A stretch of DNA of 64,000 nt from Candidatus Bathyarchaeota archaeon (GTDB lineage Archaea > Thermoproteota > Bathyarchaeia > 40CM-2-53-6), in NCBI GenBank assembly GCA_005888745.1, contig VBBS01000026.1:1-64000 (forward strand), written 5' to 3'. This document shows, one piece after another, positions 1,810 to 60,110 of the stretch (the first letter of the stretch is position 1; every line of letters begins with the position of its first letter). The notes beneath the pieces were generated by a model. That model did no database searches. It worked only from the letters and a program-made list of their open reading frames with translations, and was not told where the DNA came from. A program made the position numbers and the translations under genes.

Positions 1810-3381
1810 GTGGACGTCAAACCTTTGAAGATTAATTGGATCCCCGGAAAGAATAAAGAATTGTCATTGTTCCTCTTATTAGCTCGTAAGCGACGTAGGG
1901 AAGTCGACAGTCGATCGACCCTTCGGTGGGGTGCACGCGCAATTCGTAGCGTGGGATTAATAGCATTAGTCGGGGTGGTTGTTCTCGCCAGCATGGGTAT
2001 TGCGCTGGCGCACGAAGTATCGAGTTCGAACTCGCCTCAAAGTCCTACTCGAATGAGCCAAATTGTCACCACGTGCCCCACGGGTTATGCTTCCGCGATC
2101 AGTAGATGCGTCCCTCGAGAGTGCGTATTCAGGTCTGCTAGCCAATTTGATGAGAACACAGGAGACTTGACATTCAACAATGGCACTCGTATAGTCATTC
2201 CAGCGCACTGCCTGAATGGTCATAACGACGCAAAGGGAACTACTATCTCAAGCACATTACCCGTCAGCCCTTCTGCGGCCTCCGTGTATCCCGCCACAAC
2301 CGCTTGGATTGAGGACACCAAATATGCCAATTGTGGATGGTCTGGATGTAGTCAGCTTACCTCTTTCTCCGGCAACTGGCCTGTGCCCAACAACCCTGCA
2401 ACAACAACTGATGGCCAGTCAATATACCTATTCATAGGTATGACGAACTGGTGGGACGCAAATCCAACTTATGGCCAACTCATCCAGAATGTTCTCCAGT
2501 GGGGACCAGTTAATGCCTACAGTTGCGTCAACGGTGGTTCGTACTGGGGAATAGCAAATTACTACGTAGGTAATAATTGGTGTGTGGTTAGTGACCTCAA
2601 GCAAGTGAACGTCGGTGACGTTATCGGGGGACTAATGGGAAAGACTTCGTGCGGCAATAATTGTTACTATTGGTACATGTCGACAACAGATCAGACCACC
2701 GGAGCAGGCTCCTTCATGAACGTAGCAGCACCCACCATGTACAACGTATATGTTACTCTTGAAGTGCATAATGTCGTCCAGTGCTCTGACTATCCTGCTT
2801 CAGGTTCTACTAACTTCTACAATTTGAATGTTGGCGGCGGAACACCTGGTTGGGGAAACCAAGGCCCGATAAATGACTGCCCCGACGAGAGCGTAGCCGC
2901 CTACGGCTCCAGCTTAGTTATCTTAAACTATTATTATCCACCACCCCCACCGCCACCACCAGGTGGTGGTTGCGTCGCCCAGGGCACACCTATTCTCACG
3001 AACCATGGCTATGTCCCTGTCCAAACGCTGAAGCCTGGCGAAATTGTTCTAGGATTCGACTTGAGGAATGGTCAGACAATGTCGCTTCGGCTAGTGTCGA
3101 ACACTATGACTTGGGAGAACTCGTTGATCAGAATCAATGATGGTGCGCTCCTCCTCACCGCCACTAATCAGCCGATCTACACTAGAAACTCTACCTACAT
3201 CGGCTGGGTACGCGACCCTCAGAACTTGAAAGTTGGCGAGTCGATCTATGATGCAGTCAATCACCAATGGGTGCCGATATACAGCGTCGAGAATGTCTAT
3301 GACAGAACCAGGGTATACGACGTCGTCACGGCGGGGCCGAACAACTTCATAGCCAATGGATACCTACTGGATTACAAGTAG
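1810..3381 (+). CDS. Secreted G1-peptidase-like protein with C-terminal Hint domain
   Basis: A 523-residue exported protein with a GTG start. After a basic N-terminus, residues about 49-67 form one hydrophobic segment ending in ALA, a likely signal or anchor. Residues about 165-365 follow the pattern of the glutamic peptidase (G1, eqolisin) beta-sandwich: a W-x-V-P motif at 190-193, a Gln at 226 in LIQNVL, a V-x-x-GD motif, and a Glu at 318 in VTLEVHN. Gln and Glu are the catalytic pair of that family, so activity is possible but inferred. Eight prolines and three glycines then lead to Cys388, which opens a 136-residue Hint domain (CVAQGTPILT ... NFIANG). Hint domains cleave or splice themselves. 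Here the block-B histidine is replaced by Gln454, and the end is ANGYLLDYK instead of His-Asn, so the chemistry may be altered. Many Cys residues fit an extracellular site. Confidence 0.7.
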   Translation: MDVKPLKINWIPGKNKELSLFLLLARKRRREVDSRSTLRWGARAIRSVGLIALVGVVVLASMGIALAHEVSSSNSPQSPTRMSQIVTTCPTGYASAISRCVPRECVFRSASQFDENTGDLTFNNGTRIVIPAHCLNGHNDAKGTTISSTLPVSPSAASVYPATTAWIEDTKYANCGWSGCSQLTSFSGNWPVPNNPATTTDGQSIYLFIGMTNWWDANPTYGQLIQNVLQWGPVNAYSCVNGGSYWGIANYYVGNNWCVVSDLKQVNVGDVIGGLMGKTSCGNNCYYWYMSTTDQTTGAGSFMNVAAPTMYNVYVTLEVHNVVQCSDYPASGSTNFYNLNVGGGTPGWGNQGPINDCPDESVAAYGSSLVILNYYYPPPPPPPPGGGCVAQGTPILTNHGYVPVQTLKPGEIVLGFDLRNGQTMSLRLVSNTMTWENSLIRINDGALLLTATNQPIYTRNSTYIGWVRDPQNLKVGESIYDAVNHQWVPIYSVENVYDRTRVYDVVTAGPNNFIANGYLLDYK

Positions 3382-4348: not shown

Positions 4349-6265
4349 TCAGTGTCCATTGACGTTGTAGATGGCGATGAAAATGTCGCTTGCCAGTACC
4401 GGGTTGCCTTCGAATGTCTTGTTTGGCTTGACGCCGGTCCAGACTCCGTAGACTGTCCCGTCATTAGTAAGTACTACGTGGTTATAGTCGCCGATGAATG
4501 CGCCAGCAGTGAAAGCATTGTCATAGTTTGACGGGAACTGTGCGATCAATGTTTCCTTCCAGTTCACTAGATCCGTGGTATAGCCGACTGTGGCTCTTGA
4601 AAACTTGTTAGGTATCGGATTAGTGTCGTAGCGCCTGTCCAAGTATAATACCACAACCTGTCCGTTTGCATTGGCCGCGACCCATGGATAGAACTGGTCC
4701 TTGTTGTTTGCAGGGGTGACTGATGGCTTGTCCTGGTTCACCAGTTTTGGTGAAGTCCATGACACACCGTTGTTGGTGCTGGTGATGATGAAGACATCAT
4801 TGTCCGTATTCAGGCCCGCGGGACAATTGTAGGATGTTGCAGGATTCGTTGTGCGAGGACCAACATGTTGGCCTGAAAACTCGCCTGCGTGGGCCCGGTC
4901 GTCGGCCCATGCGATGTACAATTGACCATTGCTAATGTTGATGGCAAAGCCTTCGGTTGATGAGAGACGGAAGTTGCTATTGCAAAGCGTTGATCGTCCC
5001 TGTCCACCCGTTGTCTGGACTGGGTAATCATCGAATCCGTCGTAGACTGGAAACGTGGCAAGGTATGCTCCATCCACCGTGAAGCCGCTTGCTGTCGCTG
5101 CAGGATGGACCCTTGTGACAAGGTATTGGTCGCGGTGTTCCGGTATCTCGTGCTGGCCATTGATGAATACTACGTAGACAGTGCCGTCCTTGGCGACTAC
5201 TGGGACAGAAAACTGGTCTTCGACGCAGCGGCCCGCGTTAGCAGCGTTGAGCGCAAATCCGAGACAGTTCGGATTCGTAACTATTGAACCCGTCACGTCG
5301 ATCGGGTTAGAGAAGGTGTTGCCCTTGTCATCCGAAAAAGCCAGCTCGATTGGAGAGGCAGAGTACACGCTACCTGTTGAGTCAAGCATGAACTGGCTCC
5401 ATGTAACATAGATTCGTCCATAGAATGGGCTTGTTGGCGTATTGTCAATGGCCAGCCATTCCTTATCGTTGAAGATGCTACAGTCCTGACCGGTAAAGGA
5501 ACCATCCCAATAGGTAATTGTACGTACTCCGCCACCAGTCGCTGTTGGAGCGAACCGCTTGTTGATCGGCCTCGTCCAGTCTAGACCATTCGGCGATCGG
5601 TAGAGGTAGACTCCGCTGGCGCAGTTGTCAGCTGAAAAGCCGATGCTCGTGTAATAGTACTCATTGTCCTTCTGACTATACACGACTACGGGGTCACCGG
5701 TGCCGATGGGCGGTGCAGAGTAGATGCAACTGGTGCCGGTTCCTCCAGCACACATCAGTGAGAATGGTGGGAAGTAGGTTTCGGCTGGGAAGCTTGCACC
5801 CTTCAAGTGAGTGTAGGATCCGCCCCCGACGGGGCCTCCGATTCCATAGTCGTTTGCGCCCGCAACAACTGTTCCGGTCGCTGGGTTTACAGTGACCGCC
5901 GGCTCATCTCTTGGCCGCTGGTTAAAATCCTTGTTCAACTGGCTACTGGGCACGGCCGCGGGCGGTCCACCTTCTCCTCCACCATTTTGGCCTCCCCCAT
6001 TGGCATCATCGTCTCCGTGATTGCCAGTGAATCCCATGTTGGCTATCTTGGCAAACATTGACATCGTTGCCGGCTCGGAGAGCACTGGTAACCTTGGAGT
6101 AGCAATAGTAGGCTCGTGTGCTACTGGTTTTACAACGCCTGTTGCGGCCAGCGAGGACGCTAATAGTACGATGATTACAGCTGTGCTTGTCTTGGCTGCG
6201 ATGATTTTATGTGTGAAGCTGTTGAGATTTTTCAATAAAAACAATTTGTTTTCGCTCCGTTTCAT
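4349..6265 (-). CDS. Secreted sialidase-like BNR beta-propeller protein
   Basis: A 638-residue exported protein. The N-terminus is basic, followed by a hydrophobic segment at about residues 24-46 (a signal peptide or anchor), a Pro/Gly/Asn-rich linker and then the globular part. The globular part opens with RDEPAVTVNPATGTVVAG, a motif typical of sialidase/BNR-repeat propellers in exported prokaryotic proteins. At least three Asp-box-like repeats are visible: RSPNGLDWTRP, SDDKGNTFSNP and STNNGVSWTSP, the last two close to the S-x-D-x-G-x-x-W consensus. The family includes exo-sialidases, but many members bind or act on other glycans, and I cannot assign catalytic residues. It is transcribed alone from a promoter region holding a 14-base direct repeat (6312-6341). 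A role outside the cell on glycans or polymers is inferred. Confidence 0.75.
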   Translation of the reverse strand: MKRSENKLFLLKNLNSFTHKIIAAKTSTAVIIVLLASSLAATGVVKPVAHEPTIATPRLPVLSEPATMSMFAKIANMGFTGNHGDDDANGGGQNGGGEGGPPAAVPSSQLNKDFNQRPRDEPAVTVNPATGTVVAGANDYGIGGPVGGGSYTHLKGASFPAETYFPPFSLMCAGGTGTSCIYSAPPIGTGDPVVVYSQKDNEYYYTSIGFSADNCASGVYLYRSPNGLDWTRPINKRFAPTATGGGVRTITYWDGSFTGQDCSIFNDKEWLAIDNTPTSPFYGRIYVTWSQFMLDSTGSVYSASPIELAFSDDKGNTFSNPIDVTGSIVTNPNCLGFALNAANAGRCVEDQFSVPVVAKDGTVYVVFINGQHEIPEHRDQYLVTRVHPAATASGFTVDGAYLATFPVYDGFDDYPVQTTGGQGRSTLCNSNFRLSSTEGFAINISNGQLYIAWADDRAHAGEFSGQHVGPRTTNPATSYNCPAGLNTDNDVFIITSTNNGVSWTSPKLVNQDKPSVTPANNKDQFYPWVAANANGQVVVLYLDRRYDTNPIPNKFSRATVGYTTDLVNWKETLIAQFPSNYDNAFTAGAFIGDYNHVVLTNDGTVYGVWTGVKPNKTFEGNPVLASDIFIAIYNVNGH

Positions 6266-47405: not shown

Positions 47406-48581
47406 CTATTTCTTGACTGGTGTCTGCCAGCTGAAGGGGTAGTTGGGATCGTCAAGCTTCTCCGCGATCGAAGTCACCTTCAACGGCTTCTTAGTTTCGA
47501 TCATTATTGCCAGTTCGTTCGTGGAGTCTTTTCCGATGCTTGCTTCCACGGCTCCTGGTTGGGGTCCGTGGTGGACGCCCCTCCGGTGTAGTGTGAACGA
47601 TCCTACTTCTATTCCTCGACGGCTGCTGAAGTCCCCGCTTACGTAGTATAGAACCTCGTCGCTGTCAATGTTGCTGTGGTTGTATGGGACGGGTATAGCT
47701 TGGGGATGGTAGTCGAGTTTTCGCGGGACGAAGGATAGCACATCGAACCCTGGTGCTTCGAAGGTCTGATGGATCGGTGGCGGCTGGTGGACCCGACCGG
47801 TTAAGGGCTCGAAATCGTTGACGTTGAAGATCCATGGGTAGAGGTAACCGTCCCATCCTACAACATCGATAGGGTGGAAGTCGAAAACATAGGACATTAG
47901 CGAGTTGTCGATCTTGACTCGGACCTCAAACTCTCCCGACTCGTTATGCGGGGCAAGCTTCTCCGGCCGACGGAAATCTCTGTCTGCATAAGGCGCCAGT
48001 TCTACCAGCTGGCCGTAATCGTTTCTGTACCGCTTGGGAATCTCGATGGGCCCCCCGGATTCGGTAACCATGAACCGGTTGTCCTTTCCCTCCAGGTTTA
48101 CTCTGTAGGTAGTTCCTCGGGGGACGATGACAAAGTCTCCCTCGTGGAAGGGAAGGATTCCGAAGACAGATTCCAGGCTTCCCTTTCCTTCATGGATGAA
48201 GTACAGCTCGTCTCCTTGGGCGTTCCTGAAGAACCAGTCCATGCCATGGGAGGGTCGGACGGTTGAGACGAAAACATCGTCATTGTAGAACAAGGGCTGG
48301 CGTCCCTCAACCGGGTCCTTTGCCAGTTCAGTGTTCTTGGTGCGGACGTGGTGATGCCGATGGAGGTCTGGCATCCATCGAGTTATCGCGAGCTCCTCAA
48401 GCTTCTTGATGTGGGACACTTTGGTTGGGGGGTTGATGTGATATAGGGTTGAGTAGACTCCTGAGAATGCTTCGGTCCCGAAAACCTCTTCCTGGTACAA
48501 CGAGCCGTCTGGCTTTCGGAACTGGGTGTGCCTCTTGGCGGGGAGTTTGCCGAGGCTGTAATAACTGGGCAATTTGCTCAC
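47406..48581 (-). CDS. hmgA: Homogentisate 1,2-dioxygenase
   Basis: A 391-residue enzyme that opens homogentisate to maleylacetoacetate with Fe(II) and oxygen. It has the double-cupin layout. The first half carries FFRNAQGDELYFIHEGKGSLES and FHEGDFVIVPRGTTYRV. The second half carries PYNHSNIDSDEVLYYVSG and FTLHRRGVHHGPQPGAVEASIG, with the His/Glu iron ligands typical of the family. Family length is 380-440 residues. Its start overlaps the fumarylacetoacetase stop by 4 bases, and 4-hydroxyphenylpyruvate dioxygenase is two genes upstream, which fixes the pathway as tyrosine/phenylalanine breakdown. Confidence 0.92.
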   Translation of the reverse strand: MSKLPSYYSLGKLPAKRHTQFRKPDGSLYQEEVFGTEAFSGVYSTLYHINPPTKVSHIKKLEELAITRWMPDLHRHHHVRTKNTELAKDPVEGRQPLFYNDDVFVSTVRPSHGMDWFFRNAQGDELYFIHEGKGSLESVFGILPFHEGDFVIVPRGTTYRVNLEGKDNRFMVTESGGPIEIPKRYRNDYGQLVELAPYADRDFRRPEKLAPHNESGEFEVRVKIDNSLMSYVFDFHPIDVVGWDGYLYPWIFNVNDFEPLTGRVHQPPPIHQTFEAPGFDVLSFVPRKLDYHPQAIPVPYNHSNIDSDEVLYYVSGDFSSRRGIEVGSFTLHRRGVHHGPQPGAVEASIGKDSTNELAIMIETKKPLKVTSIAEKLDDPNYPFSWQTPVKK

Positions 48582-49588
48582 TCTGAGGTTTTCTCGGGGC
48601 GTATAACTTTGTTTCTCAATCCTCCCAGTCTTTCTATCTCAAGCTCCACGATGTCTCCTGGTTTGAGCCAGGAGTGCACCTCTGGTCCGAGCTCTAAGAG
48701 CGATCCTGTTCCTATGGTCCCGGATCCGAACACTTCTCCGGGTTGGAGCTGAACGGATTGCGAGGCCCGGGCTATCATCTGTGGGAAGGTCCAGTGCATC
48801 TTGTCCATGTTTCCGATCGAGAGTTGTTTGTTGTTGACTTTGGCGGTCATCTTGAGATTGAACTTGCCCGGCGCGGTCCTCCGGTCTTGTAGCTCGTCTG
48901 GGGTGACGAGCCATGGTCCGAGCGAGGTAGCGAAGTCCTTTGCCTTAGCCGGGCCCAGCCCGATTTTCATCTCGCCCACCTGAACGTCCCGCGCGCTCCA
49001 ATCGTTCATTATAGTGTAGCCTGCGATGTGGGCTTCAGCTTCCGATTCCGGTATGTCCATTCCACCTCGTCCGATTACACACGCGACCTCAAGCTCGTAG
49101 TCGAGAGTCTTAGTGTAGGATGGATAGGGCACGTTGTCTTCCGGACCATAGATTACGTGCGGGTTTGAGTAGTAGAAGGCGGGAAACTCGTACCACTCCT
49201 GCGGCATTGGAAGGCCTCTGCGGGCTCGAGCGGCTTTGACATGGTCTTCGAATGCGTAGAAGTCTCGCAGAGTCGGGGGGTCTGGAACTGGAGCCTTAAG
49301 CGCGGCGTCTTCGATACGAGTCATGAATCGATGGACGTGTTCTGGTGCTATTCTGTTGAATATCCGCCACGACACGGATTGAAGATCGTCTAGGAGTTTC
49401 GGGTTCCTAGATAGGATCTGTTTGATGGTGATGACGGCAGGTAGGTTTCGAATTGATCGTGGAGCGGAAATCTTCAGCTTTTCAGCTGTGCCGGCAACTT
49501 CGTCGATATCTAGTATCCATTCTCCCCACAGCAGCCCAGTACGGGTCTTGGTCGGCGTCTTCTCTTTGCTGTAGGAGACCAGTTTCAT
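48578..49588 (-). CDS. Fumarylacetoacetate hydrolase-family protein
   Basis: A 336-residue protein of the fumarylacetoacetase/FAH family. The metal and substrate motifs are visible: YPSYTKTLDYELEVACVIGRGGMDIPES, IAGYTIMNDWSARDVQ, and FATSLGPWLVTPDEL, with GEVFGSGTIGTGS toward the end. It cleaves fumarylacetoacetate to fumarate and acetoacetate, the last step of tyrosine breakdown. Some relatives also take maleylacetoacetate or other acylpyruvates, which would explain the missing isomerase gene. It sits 6 bases after the hydroxyphenylpyruvate dioxygenase gene. Confidence 0.88.
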   Translation of the reverse strand: MKLVSYSKEKTPTKTRTGLLWGEWILDIDEVAGTAEKLKISAPRSIRNLPAVITIKQILSRNPKLLDDLQSVSWRIFNRIAPEHVHRFMTRIEDAALKAPVPDPPTLRDFYAFEDHVKAARARRGLPMPQEWYEFPAFYYSNPHVIYGPEDNVPYPSYTKTLDYELEVACVIGRGGMDIPESEAEAHIAGYTIMNDWSARDVQVGEMKIGLGPAKAKDFATSLGPWLVTPDELQDRRTAPGKFNLKMTAKVNNKQLSIGNMDKMHWTFPQMIARASQSVQLQPGEVFGSGTIGTGSLLELGPEVHSWLKPGDIVELEIERLGGLRNKVIRPEKTSE

Positions 49589-49594
49589 CTGAGG

Positions 49595-50683
49595 CTAGAG
49601 GTTTCCCCGCTTCGCCTGTTCTGCTTCTATGGATTGGAACAGGGCCTTGAAGTTGCCTTTCCCAAATGATTCGCTTCCTTTCCTCTGGATGAGCTCGAAG
49701 AACAGTGTGGGCCGATCTTGGAGGGGTTTGGTGAATATCTGGAGCATGTAACCCTTCTCATCCTTGTCCACCAGTATGCCTAGACGTTTTAGATCATCTA
49801 TCCTCTCCGAGATTCCTCCGACGCGCTTAGGAAGTTCTGCATAGTAGCTGTCGGGTGTCCGCAGGAATTCTATTCCGCGCTCGGCCAATCTTGCGACGGT
49901 GGCGACGAGGTCTTCAGTGGAGATGGCGAGGTGTTGGACTCCGGCGCCCTTGAAGTAGTCTAGGTATTCTTGAATCTGCGATTTTCTTTTTCCCGCGGCA
50001 GGCTCGTTGATCGGGAACTTTACTGTCCCGCTGGGATTGCGCATGACTTTGGAGCGGAGGGCTGAGTATTCGGTGCTGATATCTTTGTCGTCGAAGCTGA
50101 TGAGCTGGGTGAACCCGAAGACGTTGCCGTAGAACTCCACCCAATAATCCATCTTTCCCTCTTCCACGTTAGCGACCACGTGGTCGACATGTTTCAGGCC
50201 CACGGACTCGGCTTTCCCTGGGAATGGTGTGTATCCTGGGGCGAATATTCCGCGATAGTCGTGACGTTCAATGAACGTATGTACGGTATCGCCGTAGGCT
50301 GCGATGGCAGCGCCGCGGATGGTACCGTAATCGTCCTTGAGGATCTTCGGAGCCTGTATTCCCTTGGCTCCGCGACGAATTGCTTCCTTGTATGTCCAGT
50401 CAACATCTTTGACTCGCATGGCAACGTCGGCTACACCGTCTCCATGCGTGATTACGTACCTGGAGATCGGATGGTCTGGAATTAGGGACGAGGTCAGTAG
50501 AAGTCTGATATCGCCTTGCTGCATCAGGTAGGAGGTCTTGTCCTTGACCCCTGTCTCTGGTCCGCTGTAGGCTACGGGTGCGAAGCCGAACCCGTTCTTG
50601 TAAAAGTAGCTGGCCTGTTTCGCGTTTCCAACGTAGAGCTCAACATAGTCTATTCCTTCGATAGGCAACGCATCGTTCTTCAA
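49595..50683 (-). CDS. hpd: 4-Hydroxyphenylpyruvate dioxygenase
   Basis: A 362-residue enzyme of the vicinal-oxygen-chelate fold that turns 4-hydroxyphenylpyruvate into homogentisate, with a TTG start. It shows EGIDYVELYVGNAKQASYFYKNGFGF, then VGLKHVDHVVANVEEGKMDYWVEFY, AGVQHLAISTEDLVATV, and LQIFTKPLQDRPTLFFELIQRKGS. The two His and the late Glu are the iron ligands. Size and motif order match bacterial and plant enzymes. It is the first gene of the five-gene operon; tyrosine aminotransferase, needed to make its substrate, is not present here. Confidence 0.93.
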   Translation of the reverse strand: MKNDALPIEGIDYVELYVGNAKQASYFYKNGFGFAPVAYSGPETGVKDKTSYLMQQGDIRLLLTSSLIPDHPISRYVITHGDGVADVAMRVKDVDWTYKEAIRRGAKGIQAPKILKDDYGTIRGAAIAAYGDTVHTFIERHDYRGIFAPGYTPFPGKAESVGLKHVDHVVANVEEGKMDYWVEFYGNVFGFTQLISFDDKDISTEYSALRSKVMRNPSGTVKFPINEPAAGKRKSQIQEYLDYFKGAGVQHLAISTEDLVATVARLAERGIEFLRTPDSYYAELPKRVGGISERIDDLKRLGILVDKDEKGYMLQIFTKPLQDRPTLFFELIQRKGSESFGKGNFKALFQSIEAEQAKRGNL

Positions 50684-58078: not shown

Positions 58079-59602
58079 CTAGGTCGAGCCATCGTGGTGC
58101 GATTTGTCCTTCGTCTGTTTGGGATCTTTAGCCATCCCCTTCAGGCGACCCCTATCCCTCCACAACAAGTACGCGATGAGAGCAAAGAATCCGAGAGATC
58201 CAATTTCCAAAGCTAGCGTGAAATAGTCCGGTCCGGTTGACCCTCCGCTCCCACCGTTATTTGGTGGAGGAATGCCAACGCACTTGGCTAGAGGAGTCGC
58301 GATCTCCGCGGATACTAAGCTAAGGACCAAGAGGGCCGCAATGACAATGGTCGCCAGAGAAACAGACGTTGCGACAACTGGTCCTTTACCTCCAGCGGAG
58401 TCGACTCTCAAGCGCCTCCTCCTGATGACGAGATATGTCGCGCCGAGAACCCCTGCCCCAGCGACGAGAATCTCAGGCAGATAGGACGTAACAATATCAA
58501 CGATTGACCGGTTGTTTTGAGGTTGACCCAAAGAATTCGCAGGCACCATACCGATCTGGTTCGCCGCGAACTGTGTGAACCAGAAGTTACCTGATTGGTC
58601 CAAGGCGTTGAGCACGGAATACGATCCGGAGGTAGGAACGTTGAACTCATCCAAGGTGCTGGATGTAGGGTCCAGCCGCCCAACCCGGTCGGCGAGATGC
58701 TCCATAAACCAAAGCCGGCCTTTCTTGTCCATAGCAATTGTAGCTGGAGCTGTGAAACTGTATCCCCTAGTCGGTGGGGAAGTAGAATATTTTCTCAGCG
58801 TCGAGTTCGACGGAAAGAACACGTCGACGGAACTCCCCCCGTGTTCTGCGATCCATACATTGCCAGCTCGATCGAGAACTACTCCAACGGGAGAATTGAC
58901 GGGCTGGGATGGCGTGAATTCCTGAAACGTGTGATCGGTCATATTGAACCTGGCGATCCTATTAGCGTACGACTCGGTAATCCAGAGAAGAGATGTCCCG
59001 TTTTGATACGCCACCTCAGCCGGGCCTGAGTCGGGAGTTGGGAGCAGATATTCCACCATCACATTGCCGGGATAGAGTATCTCCCCAATCCTATTCCCCG
59101 TCACCTCGGTGAACCAAACGTTGCCGGTTTGGTCGATGAAAATAAAGAGTGGGAACGAGTTTGCGGTGTTCGTGCTGAACCTTCTGAAGACTATTGTGTT
59201 AGGATTGAACATCCAGACACTACCTTGACCGCTCGGGTCCGAGAACCAGATCCTTCCCCGCATATCCATCGCTAACGAGTCTGGTTCCACTCCTGTCGCA
59301 TTTGCCTTGAAATCATGAATGGTACCATTTTGTCCGAAAAGTACTCCGATCTTGCCTGCGTTGAATTCGGTGAACCAGAATGTGTTGTTTGGCCCAGCGA
59401 TTATTGCCTCAGGTCCAGAGTCGCTGGTCGGTATCTGAAATTCGGTTATGATGCTGCCAGAGCCCTGTTGGCCCGCGACGAAAATAATGTCAGTTCCGAG
59501 AATGAACGCTAATATCACAATGGTGACGATGAATAGCGCGGTCAGCTTCCTAACAAAATCCGCACTCGCGCCCCTCGGACAAGCTATGACTTCCCTGCTC
59601 AA
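58079..59602 (-). CDS. Secreted Vgb-like (virginiamycin B lyase-type) beta-propeller, membrane-anchored
   Basis: 507 residues from a TTG at 59602, just after the regulator's stop; a longer frame to 59671 overlaps that gene. A signal or anchor helix (LTALFIVTIVILAFILG) comes first. Then about seven blades repeat ITEFQIPTSDSGPEAIIAGPNNTFWFTE-like units: WFSDPSGQGS, VWFTEVTGNRIG, LWITESYANRI, VWIAEHGGS, LWFMEHLADRVG and FWFTQFAANQIG. The family includes streptogramin B lyase, but most archaeal members are of unknown function. Two more hydrophobic segments near the C-terminus suggest anchoring. Stop of the regulator and start of this gene are 4 bases apart, so it is likely controlled by it. Confidence 0.75.
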   Translation of the reverse strand: MSREVIACPRGASADFVRKLTALFIVTIVILAFILGTDIIFVAGQQGSGSIITEFQIPTSDSGPEAIIAGPNNTFWFTEFNAGKIGVLFGQNGTIHDFKANATGVEPDSLAMDMRGRIWFSDPSGQGSVWMFNPNTIVFRRFSTNTANSFPLFIFIDQTGNVWFTEVTGNRIGEILYPGNVMVEYLLPTPDSGPAEVAYQNGTSLLWITESYANRIARFNMTDHTFQEFTPSQPVNSPVGVVLDRAGNVWIAEHGGSSVDVFFPSNSTLRKYSTSPPTRGYSFTAPATIAMDKKGRLWFMEHLADRVGRLDPTSSTLDEFNVPTSGSYSVLNALDQSGNFWFTQFAANQIGMVPANSLGQPQNNRSIVDIVTSYLPEILVAGAGVLGATYLVIRRRRLRVDSAGGKGPVVATSVSLATIVIAALLVLSLVSAEIATPLAKCVGIPPPNNGGSGGSTGPDYFTLALEIGSLGFFALIAYLLWRDRGRLKGMAKDPKQTKDKSHHDGST

Positions 59603-59606
59603 TGAG

Positions 59607-60110
59607 TCAAAAATCCCACAATTGGATGAATCTGTCAGCTGCCTCTTCAAGTACAGTCTGGTCGGCCGCACGAAGCATGGGAAGCAGGCGTTCCGGCTCC
59701 TTCAGTTGATACGCCACTCGTCCGTCTCGGGAGAACGAAGTCATCAATATTTCTACTTCCAGCAAATTGTGGATACGCTCGCTAAGGGTTGACTTTGCTA
59801 GACCCGTGATCGTTGACAGCTGATGGTTTGTCAGCTTTCCGTCCTTAGCAATAGCCCTCAGAATCTTTCCGAAAGTATGACTCCTCAGATGAGAGTACAG
59901 GATCTTCTCCCGCTCGCTGACACCGGAGGAGAAGAGACAGGAACGGCCGCTTACCCTCCAATCGAAGACCTCTCTGTTCCTCTTGAGGGCATCAACATTG
60001 TACCTTACAGAGCTGAAGGAAACCCCCAGTATTCGCTGGATTTGCCTCAAATGGACCCCTGGGAGGAAAGATACGAGCAGCTTGACTCTCGACCTGTTTG
60101 ACCTCTCCAT
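59607..60110 (-). CDS. Double winged-helix transcriptional regulator
   Basis: A 167-residue protein with two predicted winged-helix segments. The first is VHLRQIQRILGVSFSSVRYNVDALKRN (about residues 20-46). The second is FGKILRAIAKDGKLTNHQLSTITGLAKSTLSERIHNLLE (about 80-118), followed by a wing strand (DGRVAYQLKEP). Archaeal regulators with two tandem winged helices are common in surface-protein and membrane operons. It precedes the Vgb-like gene by 4 bases and may control it. No ligand domain is seen. Confidence 0.75.
   Translation of the reverse strand: MERSNRSRVKLLVSFLPGVHLRQIQRILGVSFSSVRYNVDALKRNREVFDWRVSGRSCLFSSGVSEREKILYSHLRSHTFGKILRAIAKDGKLTNHQLSTITGLAKSTLSERIHNLLEVEILMTSFSRDGRVAYQLKEPERLLPMLRAADQTVLEEAADRFIQLWDF

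Follow-up and report, generated by a model that had tools for sequence, protein, structure and literature searches.

A predicted secreted glutamic-peptidase-like protein with a carboxyl-terminal Hint module in a Bathyarchaeota archaeon

What kind of protein is encoded at positions 1810–3381 of the window (the whole stretch of 64,000 nucleotides of Candidatus Bathyarchaeota archaeon DNA analysed here), and what role does the Hint domain at its carboxyl terminus play? A preliminary description of the locus had read the product as a glutamic-peptidase-like exoprotein joined to an atypical Hint domain. The explanation that best fits the present analysis is that it is probably a secreted precursor belonging to an uncatalogued glutamic-peptidase-like family, one member of which gained a local, non-splicing Hint module. 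The GTG start is preceded by an in-frame TAG at 1804 and the reading frame is unbroken within a 190-kb contig. The features of the gene are the following:

1810–3381, + strand: whole gene, 523 amino acids, GTG start, TAG stop
1939–2010, + strand: signal peptide core, residues about 44–67 (hydropathy; locus L045 has the same layout)
2062–2286, + strand: Cys-containing candidate pro-region, residues about 85–159 (aligns to the amino-terminal regions of L045 and L048)
2287–2943, + strand: glutamic-peptidase-like double-beta-sheet domain, residues 160–378 (homologues, conservation, predicted fold, profile comparison)
2485–2487, 2497–2499 and 2761–2763, + strand: codons of the key residues Gln226, Gln230 and Glu318, respectively
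2938–2970, + strand: Pro8-Gly3 (P8G3) hinge, residues 377–387
2971–3378, + strand: Hint domain, residues 388–523, with Cys388 first, Gln454 at the block-B position and the carboxyl-terminal motif ANGYLLDYK (fold and clade comparison)

The peptidase-like and Hint layout described earlier is confirmed. W190-P-V-P193, Gln226, Glu318, the P8G3 hinge and Cys388 all stand in the translation where they had been placed, as do Gln454 at the block-B position and a carboxyl terminus (NFIANGYLLDYK) that lacks His-Asn. The layout is not due to chance, because residues 160–378 have 75 homologues and the Hint domain has about 20 relatives in the same genus. The hydrophobic core ends in IALA followed by HE, with a probable signal-peptidase site after ALA, which suggests secretion of the gene product, and residues about 85–159 would be a pro-peptide. 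Two other loci of the window were also annotated on the reverse strand. Adjoining homogentisate-dioxygenase-like (HgmA), FAA-hydrolase and HPPD-like genes (47406–50683) form an archaeal tyrosine-degradation cluster, and 58079–59671 codes for a membrane-anchored Vgb-lyase-like beta-propeller.

A genome scan with the single sequence found zero relatives. Relatives of the peptidase-like domain were searched with patterns over one genome per species, and tblastn of the window sequence served to confirm the matches. The patterns were built from the window protein and from two lure sequences, which served for the patterns only and entered no later alignment. This search yielded the 75 relatives, which are found in archaea, Bacteroidetes, Acidobacteria, Actinobacteria, Proteobacteria, Nitrospira, Verrucomicrobia and other groups; the archaeal ones include the Nitrososphaerales MAG contigs L045 and L048. 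A further relative from the same genus, L148, came from an independent profile search. The tblastn matches in G030 and G261 were dropped, being short stretches inside genes of other kinds, and no relative was found in the plasmids and phages searched. The domain of the window protein has no match in Pfam, NCBIfam or PHROGs, and the six relatives checked against Pfam and NCBIfam likewise showed no model for it. It thus defines a widespread bacterial and archaeal family that is uncatalogued in Pfam and NCBIfam.

Conservation in this family bears directly on the peptidase assignment, for which a lack of conservation of Gln226 or Glu318 among homologues had been set beforehand as one of two refuting outcomes. 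Both residues are invariant in all aligned relatives, together with Gln230, Trp246, Pro193 and Pro329 (68-row alignment; 50 relatives without the window protein). Note that the conservation of Gln226 and Gln230 is partly selected, since both fall within one search pattern, while Glu318 lies outside it. The profile-found L148 carries the motifs IIQPVLAWG and VLEAYRL; it keeps Gln226 and Glu318 but has Ala in place of Gln230, which singles out the former two residues. The position two residues after Gln226 is Val in all members, no conserved Glu is found beyond the Trp246 strand, and the family has its own signature, [IL]QPVLQWG and LExYN.

The AlphaFold2 model computed with the family alignment is all-beta (pLDDT 86.8, pTM 0.87), with Gln226 and Glu318 each on strands within well-modelled blocks, and they would face each other in one cleft. 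The other refuting outcome, a predicted fold unlike G1 peptidases, did not occur. The top Foldseek match in the PDB is scytalidoglutamic peptidase (2ifw, E=1.5e-7, TM 0.61); ranks 2–9 are taken by neprosin with four entries, the Bacillus protease CPAVM1 with three chains, and YncM. The two-sheet half-pipe of eqolisins is present in the model with TM 0.61–0.64, values of about 0.6 that denote a common superfamily fold and not a common function. Matches in BFVD are weaker (TM about 0.4) and mix coat-protein and lectin-like folds. Profile comparison by hhalign against archaeal eqolisins gave E=1.1e-4 with the window protein and 8e-5 without it (0.37 for an unrelated Hint profile used as negative control). 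It aligns the W-x-VP strand and places Gln226 on the eqolisin catalytic Gln; this alignment spans the Gln half only, and the equivalence of Glu318 comes from fold order and conservation. The assignment made earlier from motif spacing thus stands as to fold, invariant Gln226/Glu318 and remote eqolisin homology, more firmly than that spacing could show, but not as to membership of the eqolisins; judged by fold and residues, 160–378 would act like a glutamic peptidase of a separate family.

The Hint end had been described as very clear. Its predicted structure supports this (pLDDT 74; matches to a bacterial intein-like domain with TM 0.73, to inteins and to Hedgehog, all at TM about 0.7), while its Pfam Hint scores, 18.8–18.9 bits, are under the curated cut-offs of 28.4 and 35.8; the isolated domain matches Intein_splicing with E=9e-5. 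Its relatives are found in 12 of 18 genomes of the genus, including the window's own, with one to three in each. They are mostly carboxyl-terminal on large secreted repeat proteins and occur also on BNR-like proteins (L127, L137). The window itself codes, on the reverse strand at 4349–6265, a secreted BNR/sialidase-like protein without Pfam match, to which L127 and L137, from other genomes of the genus and ending in Hint, are weakly similar. L125, L130 and L141 are RHS/YD-repeat proteins of the same genus and family that carry a Ser-type Hint in mid-chain with repeats after it, an RHS core also following the Hint in L130 and L141; they are possibly archaeal polymorphic-toxin-like proteins.

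In clade Hint domains whose start is complete, Ser comes directly after a Gly-rich linker, Cys being found only in the window protein. The block-B Thr-x-x-His and the terminal His-Asn are absent in all clade relatives examined. The altered residues therefore do not set this protein apart; Gln454 and the missing His-Asn reflect losses common to the clade. Of the clade's motifs, the window Hint keeps Gly-Thr, Tyr-Asp and Asn-Gly, along with Cys1. The genome holds a second Hint fragment (L142, contig 15), which lacks the first residues and has Lys at block-B. In a quick tree the window Hint and L142 branch, with moderate support, near the Cys-bearing outgroup L134, and for this reason Cys at position 1 is probably ancestral.

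The peptidase-Hint fusion is a singleton. The alignment of L045 and L048 with the window protein begins at the signal peptide and runs up to residue 374, where both relatives stop. The homologue search called for in the preliminary description found no such fusion, Hint being absent from the loci of all peptidase-domain relatives and from L148, which makes the fusion a local event with a single known case. The unbroken ORF within the 190-kb contig makes an assembly error unlikely, although only one genome supports the fusion. Splicing by the window Hint is excluded on sequence grounds, since nothing follows the domain and the terminal His-Asn is missing. The idea of a self-cleaving anchor was not upheld either: hydropathy of the window protein reveals no hydrophobic stretch besides the signal peptide, and an anchor role is rejected on that account. 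Inteins naturally without the block-B His exist, namely the Tko CDC21-1 group (PMC6333167), and cleavage before Cys388 by the predicted Hint is therefore possible by analogy.

In the preferred explanation, the signal peptide would export a precursor in which the short Cys-containing pro-region stands before the double-beta-sheet catalytic domain. Gln226 and Glu318 are predicted to activate water for peptide hydrolysis, probably with an acid pH optimum as in eqolisins and neprosin. In one species the gene would have gained a carboxyl-terminal Hint through the Pro8-Gly3 hinge, in a genus that puts such domains on many surface proteins. The Hint would most likely be a presentation or processing domain, catalysing no more than a slow N-S acyl shift between Gly387 and Cys388, and would give either no cleavage or slow amino-terminal cleavage.

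A doubtful alternative is that the peptidase releases itself, Cys388 attacking Gly387 to form a thioester whose hydrolysis or transfer would free the peptidase or link its carboxyl terminus to a surface nucleophile. Hedgehog-type and type B BIL domains achieve release or transfer through such a thioester. The Ser or Cys nucleophile is found right after Gly in every complete clade member even though the other active-site residues have been lost, and the flexible Pro/Gly hinge would fit release. The missing block-B His stands against this; strain of a steric kind at position -1 can stand in for that residue, but the examples described have a bulky residue there and the window protein has Gly (PMC6333167). 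Furthermore, RHS-type proteins carry the same degenerate Hint in mid-chain and would be cut in two if it cleaved, and no anchor was found from which the peptidase could be released. The wider proposal of a further Gln/Glu-dyad glutamic peptidase branch, one member of which is released or tethered by a Hint cleaving without the block-B His, appears unlikely.

It is quite improbable that the beta-sandwich is a concanavalin-like carbohydrate-binding or -cleaving domain. Lectins, carrageenase, ulvan lyase and GH16-like folds do occur lower in the Foldseek lists, and Ig, PKD or FG-GAP repeats lie downstream in some bacterial members; however, proteases and YncM fill the first nine places among the PDB matches and have better E-values, and the Gln/Glu pair is invariant at the peptidase positions. 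That the fusion is a functionless accident of assembly or gene degradation, as its occurrence in one genome and the weak, divergent Hint scores might suggest, is equally improbable given the single uninterrupted frame in a 190-kb contig, the typical linker and the retained Cys1, Gly-Thr, Tyr-Asp and Asn-Gly.

The preferred reading, a secreted glutamic-peptidase-like precursor with a Hint module gained once, would add a predicted branch to the glutamic peptidases, a class that has received very little study; its dozens of members range from Chitinophaga and mycobacteria to archaea and lack a Pfam or NCBIfam model. The clade's Ser/Cys Hint modules without catalytic His offer a test case for whether and how Hint cleaves without this residue.

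Among the closest known systems are the eqolisins (MEROPS G1, PF01828), which provide the best fold match and share the W-x-VP strand, the aligned catalytic Gln, a Glu on a late strand and, as predicted here, secretion with a pro-region. Their dyad Q53/E136 is matched by Gln226/Glu318, the Glu through fold order. Eqolisin motifs are represented by ILQ24TG and WIVE110 of aspergilloglutamic peptidase. Gly55 (QxG) and Glu69 (WYE), described as conserved in eqolisins (PMC6154417), are both missing from the window family. The PF01828 profile has no match in the window protein, in the tested relatives or in G000, in contrast to true eqolisins, with scores of up to 131 bits. This absence is informative because true eqolisins occur in the same phylum and genus, L014 of G017 from the same genus being a genuine one (E=3.7e-38); the many matches in the phylum show that archaeal eqolisins are not rare. 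The profile-profile comparison (E about 1e-4) relates the window family to the eqolisins, but it does not belong among them. Neprosin, a glutamate-class prolyl endopeptidase (7zva–7zvc) found in plants only (PMC9343461), shares the fold and the position of the assisting residue, its Gln192 lying four residues past Glu188, the spacing of Gln226 and Gln230. There is no detectable sequence match between the two, and neprosin has a Glu/Glu dyad (Glu188 and Glu297; PMC9343461) whereas every member of the window family has Gln as the first of the pair.

For the Hint module, the BIL domain of Clostridium thermocellum (2lwy) has in common the fold (TM 0.73), Cys1 after Gly, Gly-Thr near the start and Tyr-Asp and Asn-Gly near the end; unlike it, the window Hint lacks the block-B His, the carboxyl-terminal His-Asn and downstream sequence. 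The window Hint also differs from the Hedgehog Hog domain (1at0) in lacking the catalytic His and a sterol-binding region after the Hint, but both are carboxyl-terminal Hint domains on secreted proteins, with a Gly-Cys junction and no need for a carboxyl-terminal Asn.
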